Program-made: the position numbers and the translations under genes | The notes under the pieces: generated by a model | Database searches by the model: none | What the model was told of the DNA's origin: nothing | What the model saw: only the letters and a program-made list of their open reading frames with translations | Part shown: positions 3,394 through 9,727 of the stretch, in pieces | Layout: every line of letters starts with the position of its first letter | Position numbering within the stretch: position 1 is the stretch's first letter | DNA from: a virus | Strand: one strand, 5' to 3' | DNA length: 22,396 bases | Virus record (IMG/VR): IMGVR_UViG_3300007344_000283 | Coordinates: 1 to 22,396 of that record

Positions 3394-3684
3394 TTAAATC
3401 AACTCTACAGGCATGTCAAGTTTGTACGCCTCAAGCCATTCAGGTTCTGCATGGGTAAGGTGTGCAAAGTTTTCAAGCTCTTTGATATACATATCACCAG
3501 CCTCAAATGAACCATAGGTCATTGGGGATTTTGCCCACACAAACCACCTTGCATATTCATTGCCCCTTTCCTTATCGGGACGCTGGTATGTCTTACAGAC
3601 ATGGAACACAAAGTCTCCTGCTTCATAGATGGCATACGGATTGTCTTTGTCACGGCTCTTGCCGAAAGGGTTCTTCGTGGTCAT
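3394..3684 (-). CDS. Conserved-looking phage hypothetical protein (96 aa)
   Basis: A 96-residue protein, MTTKNPFGKSRDKDNPYAIY..., with alternating aromatic and charged residues (AGDFVFHVCKTYQRP, then NEYARWFVWAKSPMTYGSFE), suggesting a small beta-rich fold. The N-terminal pattern looks like a phage family I have seen without a known function. GGAGGAG precedes the ATG closely, so the start is sure. It lies directly downstream of copy 1 of the repeated hairpin (3710-3763), so this element could shape the 5' end or the stability of its message. It has one cysteine and no membrane segment. Confidence 0.75.
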   Translation of the reverse strand: MTTKNPFGKSRDKDNPYAIYEAGDFVFHVCKTYQRPDKERGNEYARWFVWAKSPMTYGSFEAGDMYIKELENFAHLTHAEPEWLEAYKLDMPVELI

Positions 3685-3709
3685 TCGTCATCTCCTCCAT
3701 GAGGTTTCT

Positions 3710-3763
3710 AAGAGAACCATCTTAGTCTCTCATATAAGAGAGGCTAAGTGGTATCTCTAAGGG
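3710..3763 (-). repeat. Repeated hairpin element, copy 1
   Basis: This is one of four copies of a roughly 55-base inverted repeat. On the plus strand the constant outer arms are AAGAGAACCAT and TGGTATCTCTAAGGG. The inner stem in this copy is CTTAG-T-CTCTC with a six-base loop and GAGAG-G-CTAAG. It differs from the other copies at both sides of the stem at once, so pairing is kept. It lies between the genes at 3810-4091 and 3394-3684, just before the ribosome site of the latter. Confidence 0.85.
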
Positions 3764-3809
3764 TTGCGAGGCTAACCGTGGCCCCGCACGTGCCTATTGA
3801 GCGGCAAAC

Positions 3810-4101: not shown

Positions 4102-4815
4102 CTATTCGACGATCTTCACATCGTACCCGAGCAGTTTGGATACTTCTGCGACGGTCAGTTCTTTGATCTGTCCTTCCCGGTCTTTGATCTGTCCTTCAAG
4201 GACATCGATGCCGCTGATCCCGTAGAAGATATCAGGGTCGAATCCGGGGATGTCCCAGACACGCTTCCGATCTTCCGGGTCGGCCTCGTCCCACGACTTC
4301 TGGAAGGCCTCCTTGTATTCGTAGGACTTCAGGTAGCCTCCCGTTGTCTTGTATTCAGGGTGGTCCTTCTTCTCCCGGTCAGTCATGTCAGATTCCTCGA
4401 CCCACTTGGTCAGGTTGAAGTTTAGGAATTTGGGGAGATGCGCCTGAGCCCATTCGGACCGGCTGATCGTCTTGTTGAATGCCCGGATGGTGTCAGCCTT
4501 GGTCGTGTTGAAATACCCGGTCTCGGAGTTGACCGAGTTCCAGTTGCCGGTGTTCCAGTGGCCTGTGTTCCAGTGGCCTGTGTTCCAGTGGCCGGTGTTG
4601 CGGCTGCCGGTGTTGCAGTGGCCGGTGTTCAAGTTTCCGGTGTTGCGGTCCCCGGTGTTGCGGTGGCCGGTGTTCCAGTCCCCGTTGTTGTGGTTGCCGG
4701 TGTTGTAGTTCCCGTTGTTGTGGTTGCCGGTGTTGTTTTTGCGGTCAATCATTGATTGCTTCTCCGTAGCGTTCTCTGGTTTCACGGACCAGTCGTCTGT
4801 ATTGGTTAAGGCCAA
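4102..4815 (-). CDS. NTG-type pentapeptide-repeat protein with a helical C-terminal domain
   Basis: The frame is open from a TTG at 4815 (237 residues). The ATG at 4752, with GGAG nine bases upstream, is an equally good start and gives 216 residues; the residues between look protein-like, so I keep the longer form. Residues 27-104 are about sixteen pentapeptides of the xNTGx kind (for example WNTGH three times in a row), expected to form a repetitive beta structure. Residues 105-237 are charged and mostly helical, with TGGYLKSYEYKEAFQKSWDE and IPGFDPDIFYGISGID. I recall this two-part architecture from gut bacteria and their phages. Function unknown; DNA mimicry is possible but unproven. The gene is clearly richer in GC than its neighbours, which suggests transfer. 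Confidence 0.85.
   Translation of the reverse strand: MALTNTDDWSVKPENATEKQSMIDRKNNTGNHNNGNYNTGNHNNGDWNTGHRNTGDRNTGNLNTGHCNTGSRNTGHWNTGHWNTGHWNTGNWNSVNSETGYFNTTKADTIRAFNKTISRSEWAQAHLPKFLNFNLTKWVEESDMTDREKKDHPEYKTTGGYLKSYEYKEAFQKSWDEADPEDRKRVWDIPGFDPDIFYGISGIDVLEGQIKDREGQIKELTVAEVSKLLGYDVKIVE
4504..4737 (-). repeat. 15-bp tandem repeats coding NTG pentapeptides
   Basis: About sixteen degenerate 15-base units, read on the minus strand as xx-AAC-ACC-GGx-type codons, for example the near-identical block around 4546-4596. The units in the middle are most alike, which suggests recent unit duplication. Copy number is likely variable between relatives. Confidence 0.85.
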
Positions 4816-5625: not shown

Positions 5626-5859
5626 TTATTCCTCCTCATCTTTCAGATGTTCAGCAATCTCATGCCAGTTTACTTCCGAAAGGAAGGCCATAGCATAGTT
5701 ACGGGCCAGTCCTTCGGACTGAGCGTCGATATGTTCTGTCACTAATTCCTCACATTCTTCAGCAGTCATTCCTTTAAAGGAATCCATGCCATCGAACCAT
5801 TCCAGATTGACACGCCAAGTGGCGTAGTTTGTCCAGCCATTGTGGGTTGTGTTGTCCAT
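5626..5859 (-). CDS. Phage protein with the NGWTNYATW signature (77 aa)
   Basis: A 77-residue protein starting MDNTTHNGWTNYATWRVNLE, then WFDGMDSFKGMTAEECEELV and an acidic helical end (HEIAEHLKDEEE). The NGWTN-x-TW-x-V motif near the N-terminus is typical of a widespread small family in phages, usually followed by a helical region as here. Its function has not been shown to my knowledge. GGAG lies eight bases before the ATG at 5859. It is four bases away from the next gene and fifteen from the one before. Confidence 0.8.
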   Translation of the reverse strand: MDNTTHNGWTNYATWRVNLEWFDGMDSFKGMTAEECEELVTEHIDAQSEGLARNYAMAFLSEVNWHEIAEHLKDEEE

Positions 5860-5874
5860 GAGACAGTCTCCGAA

Positions 5875-6477
5875 TTAGTTGATGCCAAGTATGGCATCGG
5901 TGTGAAGGAATGAAACGGCATCTGCATCGCTGAAGTGTTTGGGATAGCGGTTCGCCATACCCTCACACCACTGGTTCCAAAGGAACTCAGAGCCACCAAT
6001 TTTCTCACAAGTATCAACGTAGTTGCGGACTTTCCTGAGATTACCTTCGGTATGCTTGTTGTGGGAAAGCTTGAACGAACCTTCCTTGTAACCATACTCT
6101 TTCAGATTATGGCAATCCAGACAGCCAACCTTGCCTGTAAGGCACTGAAGCATAAATCCTGCCTTCACCAAGCCAATGCAAGGGATGCGCTGTAGTTCTA
6201 ACAGAACTTCCTCAGTTGAGATACCGCCATTGCGATAGTTCTCTACAAGATTGTAGAGCCAGTCACGGTTCTGTCGGACATACAGAATACCTTCACGCTG
6301 TTTCGGCATTAGCTCTGCTAATCCATTCTTGCCACGTTTCCGGTAGGTCTTCATGATACGGGGGAGCGTCACAAGCTGGGTACGGATTGATGCAATGACA
6401 AACACTGCTACACTTTCAGTGTTCTTGGGGCTTTGCTTTGCAAAGGCTTCAATCATTCTTTGATCACGAACAAACAT
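5875..6477 (-). CDS. HhH DNA glycosylase-like protein
   Basis: A 200-residue protein. At residues 97-110 it has QRIPCIGLVKAGFM, which fits the helix-hairpin-helix of endonuclease-III/HhH-GPD proteins (LPGVGxKxA), followed at 117-126 by VGCLDCHNLK. Asp121 is at the place of the catalytic Asp of 'vDtHv'. The first 95 residues are basic and helical (PRIMKTYRKRGKNGL). There is no FeS-cluster Cys set at the C-terminus. Phage genomes carry a family like this without biochemical data, so base-excision activity is inference; a DNA-binding role without catalysis is also possible. AAAGGA lies before the ATG at 6477. Both this gene and the one cut at the left edge could be DNA-repair proteins. Confidence 0.6.
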   Translation of the reverse strand: MFVRDQRMIEAFAKQSPKNTESVAVFVIASIRTQLVTLPRIMKTYRKRGKNGLAELMPKQREGILYVRQNRDWLYNLVENYRNGGISTEEVLLELQRIPCIGLVKAGFMLQCLTGKVGCLDCHNLKEYGYKEGSFKLSHNKHTEGNLRKVRNYVDTCEKIGGSEFLWNQWCEGMANRYPKHFSDADAVSFLHTDAILGIN

Positions 6478-6789: not shown

Positions 6790-6827
6790 TGGTAGATTTC
6801 CTTGTGGTTGATTGCAATGCAGTGGTT

Positions 6828-6882
6828 AAGAGAACCATCTATATCTCTCACAGGATGTGAGATATAGTGGTATCTCTAAGGG
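6828..6882 (-). repeat. Repeated hairpin element, copy 2
   Basis: Same outer arms as the other copies. The inner stem is CTATATCTCTCACA pairing with TGTGAGATATAG around GGA, with a two-base bulge. It is identical over its length to copy 3 at 7081. It lies immediately after the stop of the gene at 6884-7054 and before the ribosome site of the gene at 6553-6789. Confidence 0.85.
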
Positions 6883-6883
6883 T

Positions 6884-7054
6884 TTAGGCTGAGTGGTTGT
6901 TGACAAAGCTTTCAGCTTCATCGGGTGAGATGGTTTCAACAAAGTCACCGTTCTGGTCATGAATATCAAGATATTCATCAGAGCCAACACTGACATAAAC
7001 AGCAAAGCTGGTGTTGAACTCAATATCGTCAATTGCTTGTGCAATGGTTGTCAT
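6884..7054 (-). CDS. Small acidic phage protein between two hairpin copies (56 aa)
   Basis: A 56-residue acidic protein starting MTTIAQAIDDIEFNTSFAVY, then VSVGSDEYLDIHDQNGDFVE, and ending AESFVNNHSA. AAAGGAAG lies about eight bases before the ATG at 7054. A frame on the same strand at about 6826-7044 is open too, but it has no ribosome site and runs through the hairpin, so I prefer this one. The gene sits exactly between copies 2 and 3 of the repeated hairpin, giving it a cassette-like look. It is probably a small alpha/beta protein of unknown role. Confidence 0.7.
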   Translation of the reverse strand: MTTIAQAIDDIEFNTSFAVYVSVGSDEYLDIHDQNGDFVETISPDEAESFVNNHSA

Positions 7055-7080
7055 AGGAGGAACTTCCTTTCAGGGTTGGT

Positions 7081-7135
7081 AAGAGAACCATCTATATCTC
7101 TCACAGGATGTGAGATATAGTGGTATCTCTAAGGG
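7081..7135 (-). repeat. Repeated hairpin element, copy 3
   Basis: Identical to copy 2 through both arms and the loop. It stands between the genes at 7148-7375 and 6884-7054. The perfect identity of copies 2 and 3, separated by one small gene, suggests a recent duplication of an element-gene unit or ongoing gene conversion. Confidence 0.85.
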
Positions 7136-7147
7136 TTGTCAAGCTGC

Positions 7148-7375
7148 CTAGCGACGGCGGCTGCGGATCATAGCCCGACGATGGCGACGCTGTTCCCTTG
7201 CCATAGCCCGACGATGGCGACGCTGTTCCCTTGCCTTGACCTCAACCAAACGGTTGAGACGACGCTGTTCGGTAACATCGGCAAGACCCAAAGTGGCAGT
7301 GATGGACAGCCAAAGGCTGTAAGCTGCTACCAGAACACTGGCTACTGCCAGACCATACAAAACCATCTCAACCAT
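7148..7375 (-). CDS. Small single-span membrane protein with Arg-rich repeated tail
   Basis: A 75-residue protein. Residues 5-29 are hydrophobic (VLYGLAVASVLVAAYSLWLS onward) and form one probable membrane span. Residues 37-75 are strongly basic, with the unit REQRRHRRAMA repeated twice, then IRSRRR. The basic tail would place the C-terminus in the cytoplasm by the positive-inside rule. It is the first gene of the leftward operon. One-span small proteins can be holins or host-membrane effectors, and the phage has a SleB endolysin without signal, so a holin role is conceivable but unsupported by any motif. AAGGA precedes the ATG by about eight bases. The tail duplication comes from a 33-base DNA duplication. 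Confidence 0.7.
   Translation of the reverse strand: MVEMVLYGLAVASVLVAAYSLWLSITATLGLADVTEQRRLNRLVEVKAREQRRHRRAMAREQRRHRRAMIRSRRR
7169..7234 (-). repeat. Perfect 33-bp tandem duplication in a coding region
   Basis: The unit at 7169-7201 (CATAGCCCGACGATGGCGAC and thirteen more bases) is repeated exactly at 7202-7234. It adds eleven residues in frame to the basic tail of the membrane protein. Perfect identity suggests a recent slippage or duplication event. Confidence 0.9.
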
Positions 7376-7398
7376 CGTCGTCGTCCTTCAGAGTTGTT

Positions 7399-7452
7399 AA
7401 GAGAACCATCTATGTCTCTCATAAATGAGAGCCATAGTGGTATCTCTAATGG
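7399..7452 (-). repeat. Repeated hairpin element, copy 4
   Basis: The outer arms match the other copies. The inner stem is CTATG-T-CTCTCAT, an AA loop, and ATGAGAG-C-CATAG, so CTATG/CATAG replaces CTATAT/ATATAG and CTTAG/CTAAG of the others with pairing kept. It lies upstream of the first leftward gene (start 7375) and could be in its 5' leader. The right end has TAATGG instead of TAAGGG. Confidence 0.85.
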
Positions 7453-7464
7453 TTCATCACTGTC

Positions 7465-7774
7465 AACCCTTCGGGTTCATCAGGCTACGAGGAATCTCAT
7501 CAGTGTTGCTGAAAGGCAACACATGAGAGATTTGGGGAGTTATTGTATGAAATACAATGGGTTAGGGGGTGTCCTACTTGTCTCTAGAGTGGTATAAATA
7601 CCACACTTAAGAGACAAAGAGAGTGAATTTCTAGACCTTTTAGGTCTACATCGTCTCTCCATTGCCTCTTTAGAGGCAGAGTTGTTGCCATTATGCAACA
7701 CTTGTGTTGTTTTTGCAGACAATAAGGATTCTTTAGAGAATCCTCCAGAATCTAGTGTGTCTATAAAGACACAC
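7465..7774. repeat. Array of nine consecutive short perfect hairpins
   Basis: Stems seen in order are: 7465-7477 (AACCC/GGGTT); 7493-7532 (GTGTTGC/GCAACAC with an outer AATCTCAT arm); 7542-7558 (ATTGTAT/ATACAAT); 7578-7617 (TTGTCTCT/AGAGACAA with inner GTGGTAT/ATACCAC); 7632-7648 (TAGACC/GGTCTA); 7663-7678 (TGCCTCT/AGAGGCA); 7683-7700 (TGTTGC/GCAACA) competing with 7696-7709 (CAACAC/GTGTTG); 7725-7744 (AGGATTCT/AGAATCCT); and 7755-7774 (GTGTGTCT/AGACACAC). Most loops are two to six bases. The stems differ in sequence, so this is repeated structure rather than repeated sequence. It would form a long structured 5' leader of the leftward transcript if the promoter is near 7810. Confidence 0.8.
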
Positions 7775-7806
7775 CCCACCCAAAAAGTCGCGTGGCGCAT
7801 GTATAT

Positions 7807-7835
7807 ATATAATACCCCTGTGACATATAGACCAA
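7807..7835 (-). promoter_or_regulatory. Possible sigma70-like promoter for the leftward operon
   Basis: On the minus strand TTGGTC (7835-7830) and TTATAT (7812-7807) are separated by 17 bases. The -35 is a partial match, and the -10 sits in a run of alternating TA, so its exact register is unsure. It lies inside the inverted repeat ACCCCTG/CAGGGGT (7814-7847), which would suit an operator. The same TA run gives a perfect TATAAT on the plus strand (7808-7813), but without a -35. Confidence 0.3.
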
Positions 7836-7847
7836 AAAAACAGGGGT
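7814..7847. repeat. Inverted repeat ACCCCTG ... CAGGGGT
   Basis: Seven-base arms at 7814-7820 and 7841-7847 are separated by 20 bases that include a run of seven A. The arm distance, about three helical turns centre to centre, would let a dimeric protein bind both arms on one face. It overlaps the possible leftward promoter, so it is a candidate operator. A transcript hairpin with a large loop is less likely. Confidence 0.5.
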
Positions 7848-7889
7848 GATATCATGTCGTGATGATTTGGGACGGAGCCTCGCCTATCT

Positions 7890-7975
7890 AATTAGACTCT
7901 TATAAGACTCTTATGTATATTATTATTGTTATCTTTTTTAATCTTTATATATATCTCTATATATCTTATAAGACC
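7890..7975. other. AT-rich block with direct repeats, possible origin or unwinding element
   Basis: The stretch is almost all A and T. AGACTCTTAT occurs in tandem at 7894 and 7905, and TCTTATAAGAC, with the palindrome CTTATAAG, occurs at 7898-7908 and 7964-7974. Runs such as TATATATATCTCTATATATC lie between. Phage origins and early promoter regions often look like this, but no initiator gene is in view, so the role is open. Confidence 0.35.
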
Positions 7976-8005
7976 CCCTCAGTGACTCGCATAGCATATC
8001 ATGCT

Positions 8006-8036
8006 TTGAAAGAACCTGCAAGTGTGCTACTGTATT
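8006..8036 (+). promoter_or_regulatory. Possible weak promoter for the rightward late operon
   Basis: TTGAAA at 8006-8011 matches a sigma70 -35 at five of six bases. TGTATT at 8031-8036, 19 bases later, is a moderate -10. It lies 126 bases before the terminase start. Late promoters of phages often depend on phage factors, so a poor host match is not surprising. Low confidence. Confidence 0.25.
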
Positions 8037-8161
8037 TTTTATGATGAAAAGAATAAAAACATCCTTGCCTATCTTTTTTGTCATTTTGAGGTGGTCTTTT
8101 TACCTTCCACTTTTGTCATGGGTAGGGTATATTGTAGTGATGATGATATGGGGTACAATTT

Positions 8162-9727
8162 ATGACAAGTGACTTTCCAGATGACTATGAAGAACTGGGT
8201 AGGATCGGAACCTTTTCAGAGCTTTCATCGTCACTTGAACAGTTGGCAATGGCAAATGCAAAGAATGACTTCCTGACCTTTGTAAGAATGTTTGCACCTA
8301 CGCTGGTATCTGACTGGCAAATGGGTAGGCACATTGAAGTTCTTTCTCAGAAGTTGCAAGACGTGCATGAAGGCAAGATCAAAAGGTTGATGGTGTTCCT
8401 ACCACCACGTAGTTCAAAGTCAGTTATATGCTCAAAGCTTTTCCCTGCATGGTACATAGGTAATTCACCTAACCATGAGATTATGTCAGTTTCCCATAGT
8501 GACCAATTGTCATCAGACTTTGGACGAACTGTCAGAGATATTGTCAACACTGAAGAGTTTCAAAAAATCTTTAAGGGTGTTACACTGAGGGCAGACGTTA
8601 GGGCAGCAGGTAAGTGGAAAACAAATCTTAATGGTTCATACTATGCTGCAGGTGTAAGATCACAGATTGCAGGTCGTGGTGCACATATTGCAATTCTAGA
8701 TGACGTGATGTCAGAAGAGGACTCGTTTTCTGAAAGTGGTAGAAAGTATATTAAAGATTGGTATCCCTCTGGTCTACGAACCCGTATCATGCCTAACGGT
8801 TCAATTATTATTATCAACACCCGATACCATTTTGATGACCTTTGTGGTTGGCTTCTAAAGCAAGAGTTAGAAAATGACTTGCAGTATTCATTGCCGTGGG
8901 AAGTAGTCAGTATTCCTGCATGGTTAGATGAACCTGCAAGTGAACTGCTTGGCCTACCTGTAGGGTCTTCCTACTTTCCTGAATGGAAACCGGATGAGCT
9001 ATTGCGTATTGATGAAGAAGAAATTAGAAACAGTAACGGTGGTAAGTACTGGGAAAGCCTTTACATGCAGAACCCTTCACCTGAAGAAGGTGGGCTGATT
9101 AAACGTAAGTGGCTGCAGGACTGGCCGTATGGCGATCCGCCTAGCTGTGACTTTGTAATCCAGACTTACGATACTGCGTTCTCAACTAAGACAACGGCAG
9201 ACTATAGTGTTATCCAGACATGGGGCATCTTCTCCATGCAGGAAGACTATGAAGATGGTACTGAAGACTTTGCCTCCAATCTAATCTTGCTGTCAAACAT
9301 CAAGGGCAGGTTTGAATATCCTGAGTTGAGAAGACTGGCAAAAGAAATGTATATGAAGTTTATGCCTGATGTATGTATGATTGAAAAGAAAGCAAGTGGA
9401 CAATCACTTATTCAGGATATGAGACGGTCAGGGTTGCCAGTTATGGAATACCTGCCTGATCGTGACAAGACCTCAAGGGTCTATGCTTCAACGCCTATGC
9501 TTGAGTCAGGTAGGGTATGGCTACCAGCAGAGAAGGCATGGGCTGAAGATTTGATAGGTGAAGCATTGTCATTTCCCTATGGGCAACACGATGACCAAGT
9601 GGACGCAATGACAATGGCAATCCAGTATGTCAAGGAAAGCTGGAGACTAACACATCCTGAAGACCCTGAATGGGAAGATGATGTTAATCCACGTAGGCAG
9701 AAAAAGGTTGCATACTGGAGAAGTTAG
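8162..9727 (+). CDS. terL: Terminase large subunit
   Basis: The packaging motor: an ATPase that pumps DNA into the prohead through the portal, plus a nuclease that cuts concatemers. The 521 residues are normal for the family. The ATPase has Walker A LPPRSSKS at residues 80-87 and Walker B IAILDD at 176-181, with an RYHFDDLCGW motif after it (221-230). The RNase-H-like nuclease has YDTAF (Asp337), Asp347, MIEKKASGQS (Glu408) and HDDQVDAM (Asp477, Asp478, Asp481), the usual acidic set. The ATG at 8162 has only a weak GGGG-type ribosome site. It is the first gene of the rightward late operon. No small terminase gene is visible here; it may lie elsewhere or be unrecognised. Confidence 0.95.
   Translation: MTSDFPDDYEELGRIGTFSELSSSLEQLAMANAKNDFLTFVRMFAPTLVSDWQMGRHIEVLSQKLQDVHEGKIKRLMVFLPPRSSKSVICSKLFPAWYIGNSPNHEIMSVSHSDQLSSDFGRTVRDIVNTEEFQKIFKGVTLRADVRAAGKWKTNLNGSYYAAGVRSQIAGRGAHIAILDDVMSEEDSFSESGRKYIKDWYPSGLRTRIMPNGSIIIINTRYHFDDLCGWLLKQELENDLQYSLPWEVVSIPAWLDEPASELLGLPVGSSYFPEWKPDELLRIDEEEIRNSNGGKYWESLYMQNPSPEEGGLIKRKWLQDWPYGDPPSCDFVIQTYDTAFSTKTTADYSVIQTWGIFSMQEDYEDGTEDFASNLILLSNIKGRFEYPELRRLAKEMYMKFMPDVCMIEKKASGQSLIQDMRRSGLPVMEYLPDRDKTSRVYASTPMLESGRVWLPAEKAWAEDLIGEALSFPYGQHDDQVDAMTMAIQYVKESWRLTHPEDPEWEDDVNPRRQKKVAYWRS

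Follow-up and report, generated by a model that had tools for sequence, protein, structure and literature searches.

A chain of short hairpins between divergent phage operons that looks like a folded leader RNA

Why should some 310 bases between two divergent phage operons be packed with short hairpins that have a shape, rather than a sequence, in common? The question is raised by a genome fragment of 22,396 bases, IMG/VR virus record IMGVR_UViG_3300007344_000283, the whole of which is referred to here as the window. The nearest named phages, judged by the terminase, are the Pelagibacter phages HTVC023P and HTVC027P, at approximately 41% identity, the latter having a different layout of its terminase region; the window is a fragment of a marine phage related to HTVC023P. 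A DNA search against named phages gave no match, and no host was found when relatives of the terminase were sought in bacterial genomes.

The rightward genes run from position 8162 and include those for the terminase large subunit (8162-9727, + strand; phrog_38, E value 1e-102), which is the first of a structural gene operon, the portal and the major head protein; a short membrane-like ORF of 43 aa (8041-8171, + strand) overlaps the terminase start. The leftward genes, among them those for an endolysin, a dCMP deaminase and a thymidylate synthase, begin with one encoding a small membrane-like protein of 75 aa (7148-7375, - strand). In three longer relatives, the leftward genes share their strand with one for DNA polymerase A, located 10-14 kb away from the terminase; hence the leftward operon is taken to be the early, or replication, operon. 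The hairpins lie between the two operons, adjoined by an AT-rich tract.

Composition and statistics of the array

All nine of the hairpins predicted at 7465-7774 are present. Hairpin 1 (7465-7477) is an AACCC/GGGTT stem closed by a triloop; hairpin 2 (7495-7528) is bipartite, having 6 bp and 7 bp parts and a small bulge; hairpin 3 (7542-7558) has 7 bp; hairpin 4 (7578-7617) is again bipartite, with an outer stem of 8 bp, an inner stem of 7 bp and an asymmetric internal loop; and hairpin 5 (7619-7659) is the third of this type, its inner 7 bp spanning 7632-7648. The bipartite hairpins therefore number one more than the two originally counted. Hairpin 6 (7663-7678) has 6 bp, whilst hairpin 7 (7684-7709) can adopt two mutually exclusive pairings, at 7684-7699 or 7696-7709. 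Hairpins 8 (7725-7744) and 9 (7755-7774) are perfect 8 bp stems with four base loops, just as first described. The nine stems and loops do differ from one another in sequence, the sole repeat within the array being a weak 22 nt direct repeat (73%).

The original prediction held that chance would rarely produce such a series, and comparison with shuffled controls bears this out, the array being far more stable than the shuffles on both strands. Relative to dinucleotide shuffles, the folding z-scores are -7.6 for the + strand RNA, -8.35 for the - strand RNA and -9.8 for the + strand DNA, and none of 100 shuffles was as stable as the array. Perfect stems of at least 6 bp, with loops of 3-8 nt, number six, against a shuffle mean of 0.43, and those of at least 7 bp number five, against a mean of 0.11; neither count was reached in any of 1,000 shuffles. 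The array is the densest part of the whole window for perfect stems and is among its most stable regions on both strands, whilst the neighbouring noncoding sequence at 7775-8040 is almost without such hairpins. The array is not a chance pattern, and looks like a folded leader RNA.

No regular direct repeats, as in a CRISPR-like array of repeats and spacers, were found within it, and a search for tRNA and tmRNA genes detected none. Intrinsic terminators, consisting of a G+C-rich stem and then a T run, are not enriched (two sites, with 1.4 expected); a single weak terminator-like site occurs in the array, on the + strand only. A coding explanation was rejected, as the ORFs that span the array are not conserved among the window and its relatives L006 and L010.

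Conservation of the pairing in relatives

Terminase searches provided a set of close relatives (L005, L006, L007, L008 and L014) and a second lineage, with 84% terminase identity, represented by L010 and L034; an exact DNA pattern search for more close relatives returned only contigs already known. Pairing, the loss of which in relatives would have counted against the original prediction, is kept in them with compensatory changes. When aligned, L010 keeps the hairpins of the window, yet many of the stems differ in sequence: AGGATTCT/AGAATCCT is replaced by AAGAATCC/GGATTCTT, and TGCCTC/GAGGCA by TCATGC/GCATGA (- strand reading). Both sides are changed at two of the seven pairs of hairpin 3 and at four of the six pairs of hairpin 6, and there are two compensatory pairs in the inner stem of hairpin 4, one in the inner stem of hairpin 5 and three in hairpin 8. 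The stem of hairpin 1 is identical in L010, as is that of hairpin 9, the loop of which has changed. Over all the hand-aligned stems, 12 of 67 pairs are doubly changed and no pair is altered on a single side, a count from which some one-sided changes are removed by construction, because the stems were chosen as being paired in both sequences; L034 has two one-sided changes, by inspection.

In an unselected test, the structure of the window was superimposed on a plain, uncorrected MAFFT alignment, the control being obtained by sliding the partners by 1-3 columns. The proportion of paired cells is 87.6%, compared to 38-45% when slid, and the doubly changed cells number 20, compared to 3-15. Register is not conserved in the outer part of hairpin 5, the outer stem of which is differently registered in L010, nor in a few weak helices. 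A separate pair of homologous arrays, in L109 and L019, has 5 of 52 pairs doubly changed and none of the 52 singly changed.

Template switching also gives rise to covariation without intermediates (PMC8794818); therefore these changes support structure more firmly than they do function, and they could come partly from this process rather than from selection. It might even be that the array is entirely a mutational by-product, with the correction of quasipalindromes making and repairing perfect hairpins, and the paired changes having no function. The double nature of all the differences, the want of one-sided intermediates and the scarcity of G-U pairs are as expected from such a process (PMC8794818). 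However, the noncoding sequence at 7775-8040 is equally free to gain hairpins and has almost none, several lineages have structured leaders at the corresponding position, and the copies of a hairpin element within one genome, described below, share their outer arms and precede start codons; we consider this explanation improbable. The leader offers a natural setting in which to ask which of the two, template switching or selection, maintains perfect hairpins.

A promoter-like block and the case for a leader

To the right of the array is a promoter-like block, TTTTTTTGGTCTATATGTCA...TATATATA (7802-7840, - strand), which is conserved in distant relatives. Read leftward, it comprises TTTTTGGTAAATATATGTCA, 8-17 bases and TATATATATA, with a T-run and a G- or C-rich stretch some 12-20 bases further on; distant relatives retain TTTTTGGTAAATATATGTCA...TATATATA followed by the T-run and G/C-rich stretch. 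The equivalent of the latter in the window, TTTTTGGGTGGGG (7775-7786, - strand), is presumed to be the start of the leader. The block differs from a standard sigma-70 promoter; its order and spacing suggest that it is a leftward promoter, such that the array would begin around 20 bases into the transcript, but it could instead belong to an origin. In the window and its close relatives the block is framed by an 8 bp inverted repeat, ACCCCTGT...ACAGGGGT (7817-7848), which is absent from L010 and L034 and could be an operator.

The folding itself has no strand preference. Interior G-U pairs make up 2 of 77 on the - strand and 4 of 84 on the + strand, compared to 12% in shuffles of the window sequence, and whilst the - strand z-score is the lower in the groups of the window, L010 and L024, the opposite is true of other lineages, such that the two strands do not separate across lineages. 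As neither G-U pairs nor z-scores decide the strand, the assignment of the leader to the - strand rests on the promoter argument.

This symmetry would also suit a role at the DNA level, in which hairpins extruded in single-stranded or supercoiled DNA mark a replication origin, of which the TATATATA block is a part, for priming or unwinding. The stems are almost purely Watson-Crick, the DNA folding z-score is -9.8, an AT-rich tract is adjacent and, in the relatives G002 and G003, the minimum of the cumulative GC skew falls near the divergent region. This last observation is in keeping with the original suggestion that the hairpins are part of an origin; however, GC skew tracks gene orientation, which also flips at the divergent region. 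Sister lineages have the block without the hairpins, and similar hairpins precede individual genes, where no origin is expected. An origin is thus regarded as unlikely, although worth bearing in mind.

A structured leader is the best supported of the four readings first offered, because a long noncoding leader separates the early genes, downstream, from the promoter-like block; the suggestion of a non-coding RNA is inseparable from it. The leader of the early operon would be approximately 420 nt long, transcribed leftward from the block at 7802-7840 as - strand RNA, and what is conserved in it would be the succession of short hairpins, near-perfect and separated by few unpaired bases, while the stem sequences are free to vary. 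That the shape is fixed but the sequence free suggests that the function resides in double-helical RNA as such, and RNase III-type processing and the shielding of untranslated RNA would be the best fit, by analogy with T7 early mRNA. Post-transcriptionally, the hairpins might provide sites for RNase III-type processing and, by capping 5' ends, may keep ribonucleases and Rho away from both the long untranslated leader and the mRNAs once processed. We consider the case for a leader to be fairly strong and the mechanism to be a guess; the full proposal, that the array is a folded 5' leader RNA which shields or processes the early mRNA through its shape and not its sequence, is put forward tentatively, with slightly less than even confidence.

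Structured leaders are also found in the wider group, to which a second, profile-based terminase search added 80 loci. Behind the block, leader z-scores below -3 were found at 17 of the 28 loci carrying it, representing around seven lineages when that of the window is counted; some of the 17 are near-duplicates, and for at least one (L149) the block match is doubtful. The lineages concerned are those of the window and L010, of L109 and L019, of L024, L025 and L028, of L096, of L086 and of L051, with possibly others. In the AT-rich L031, L029 and L022, the block is retained along with a leader of comparable length that has no significant structure. Hence the array is common, but neither universal nor essential throughout the group.

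The leaders vary in other respects. That of L096, on the - strand just past the promoter-like block, has several near-identical palindromes around GAGAATGATTCTC, as does L154 at 5785-5900, making this array repetitive in sequence, unlike that of the window. The L144 leader, to the left of a typical AT-rich block, is 62% G+C, far more GC-rich than other leaders, and contains repeated GCGAGCCTGGC-like units. A 51 nt unit at the leader end, consisting of AAGGGTTTTCGACGATGAACC... and a hairpin, is tandemly duplicated in L034 and L060 (1914-2015 in the latter) and single in L010.

Bulged hairpin elements and known systems

Hairpins recur further along the leftward operon. In the window, a bulged hairpin element on the - strand directly precedes the Shine-Dalgarno site of the first leftward gene (7393-7454), and copies on the same strand are found before the next leftward gene (7075-7137), at 6822-6884, and before the gene at 3394-3684 (3704-3765). 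Each phage has its own family of such elements in this operon, with four 55 nt copies in the window, and six in each of L060 and L028; L016 and L031 have shorter palindromes there. Most directly precede a Shine-Dalgarno site and start codon, as for leftward genes of the window, L060, L028, G002, G003 and G001, with a few lying inside called ORFs or farther from a start. A Shine-Dalgarno-like site and a start codon follow within approximately 16-45 nt of all four elements in the window and all six in L060. Copies within one genome share their outer arms, whilst the inner stems vary with full compensation. The first three leftward genes are homologous between the window and L060 and each has an element, these differing in sequence; if the two families are homologous, three of the nine outer stem pairs are doubly changed in all copies.

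The leader array of L019 and L109 includes members of an ACTACT...AGTAGT family to which the intergenic element also belongs, and in L028 and L024 the loop GTTCTTACGA is common to a leader hairpin and the elements. The leader array and the elements therefore look like one kind of feature, with bulged hairpins standing directly upstream of several ribosome-binding sites in the same operon. A crude test of upstream folding, between all early and all late genes, found no difference (p = 0.51), so the claim covers the repeated elements and not upstream regions in general. An integron attC-like reading of the intergenic hairpins was dropped, their ends being without the expected inverted core sites on inspection.

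The element at 7393-7454 is a hairpin of the processing type lying between the array and the first gene, and cleavage there might release the leader as a free non-coding RNA that acts in trans, for instance through sequestering a host RNA-binding protein or nuclease. The roughly 330 nt of dense, conserved hairpins would be consistent with this. However, no loop or linker motif is conserved among the hairpins or between lineages, and an Rfam search gave no family match above the gathering score; a trans-acting RNA seems distinctly unlikely.

The nearest described feature is found in cluster K mycobacteriophages, whose extended start-associated sequences (ESAS) are inverted repeats of unknown function preceding the starts of a subset of non-structural genes, with several copies per genome and a consensus that differs between subclusters (PMC3203893). 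The elements in the window and its relatives similarly lie just upstream of the start codons of a subset of genes, and differ in consensus between lineages. The available portion of that source (PMC3203893) describes no long tandem array within the leader of an operon, and ESAS are tied to a 13 bp SAS, GGGATAGGAGCCC, overlapping the ribosome-binding site. This SAS is absent here, even with up to three mismatches allowed, and therefore neither the array nor the elements are ESAS members.

The RNase III sites of phage T7 are irregular hairpins that precede start codons and separate early genes carried on one polycistronic transcript. Irregular hairpins are likewise found between the genes of the predicted early transcript here, with cleavage at them putative. 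One of the T7 early mRNA substrates for RNase III is R1.1 (PMC4858673). T7 is not known to have a leader array of nine hairpins, and some of the elements in relatives of the window are only 6-8 bp.

Phage N4 has short hairpin promoters, with a common sequence and loop, in noncoding DNA near its early genes. The window resembles it in having short hairpins near early genes; however, promoters of this type, another of the original suggestions, are disfavoured because repeated promoters should share one sequence, whereas the nine hairpins have no common stem or loop.

The put RNAs of HK022 are folded nascent leaders of an early operon, formed of two hairpins of conserved sequence. Were the array of this type, its folded nascent RNA would modify RNA polymerase such that terminators in the early operon are read through. 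It does open a long early operon with closely spaced hairpins, but the hairpins are many and their sequence free, and no terminators were identified on which read-through could act, making antitermination very improbable.

A search of an available literature collection found no description of this leader, or of the intergenic hairpins, in HTVC023P-type phages, and a paper on HTVC023P-type genomes mentions neither hairpins nor noncoding elements. It is possible, though we think it doubtful, that these features represent an undescribed family of early operon leader RNAs, in which a chain of hairpins and not a sequence is selected, along with start-associated hairpins that, within each lineage, change together as a set. 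Such a family would imply a factor that recognises or processes the hairpins and co-evolves with them. A leader conserved in shape and not in sequence, with hairpins private to each lineage before early genes, would provide a concrete starting point for experiments on how these phages process RNA.

Repeats of other kinds are found within the leftward genes. A perfect 33 bp tandem duplication (7169-7234), near the 3' end of the first gene (7148-7375), encodes repeated basic residues. Inside the gene at 4102-4815 (phrog_14105, of unknown function), about a dozen repeats with a 15 nt period (4475-4750) encode 5 aa repeats, and L060 has a comparable tract, with 12 and 18 nt periods, at 7097-7415.
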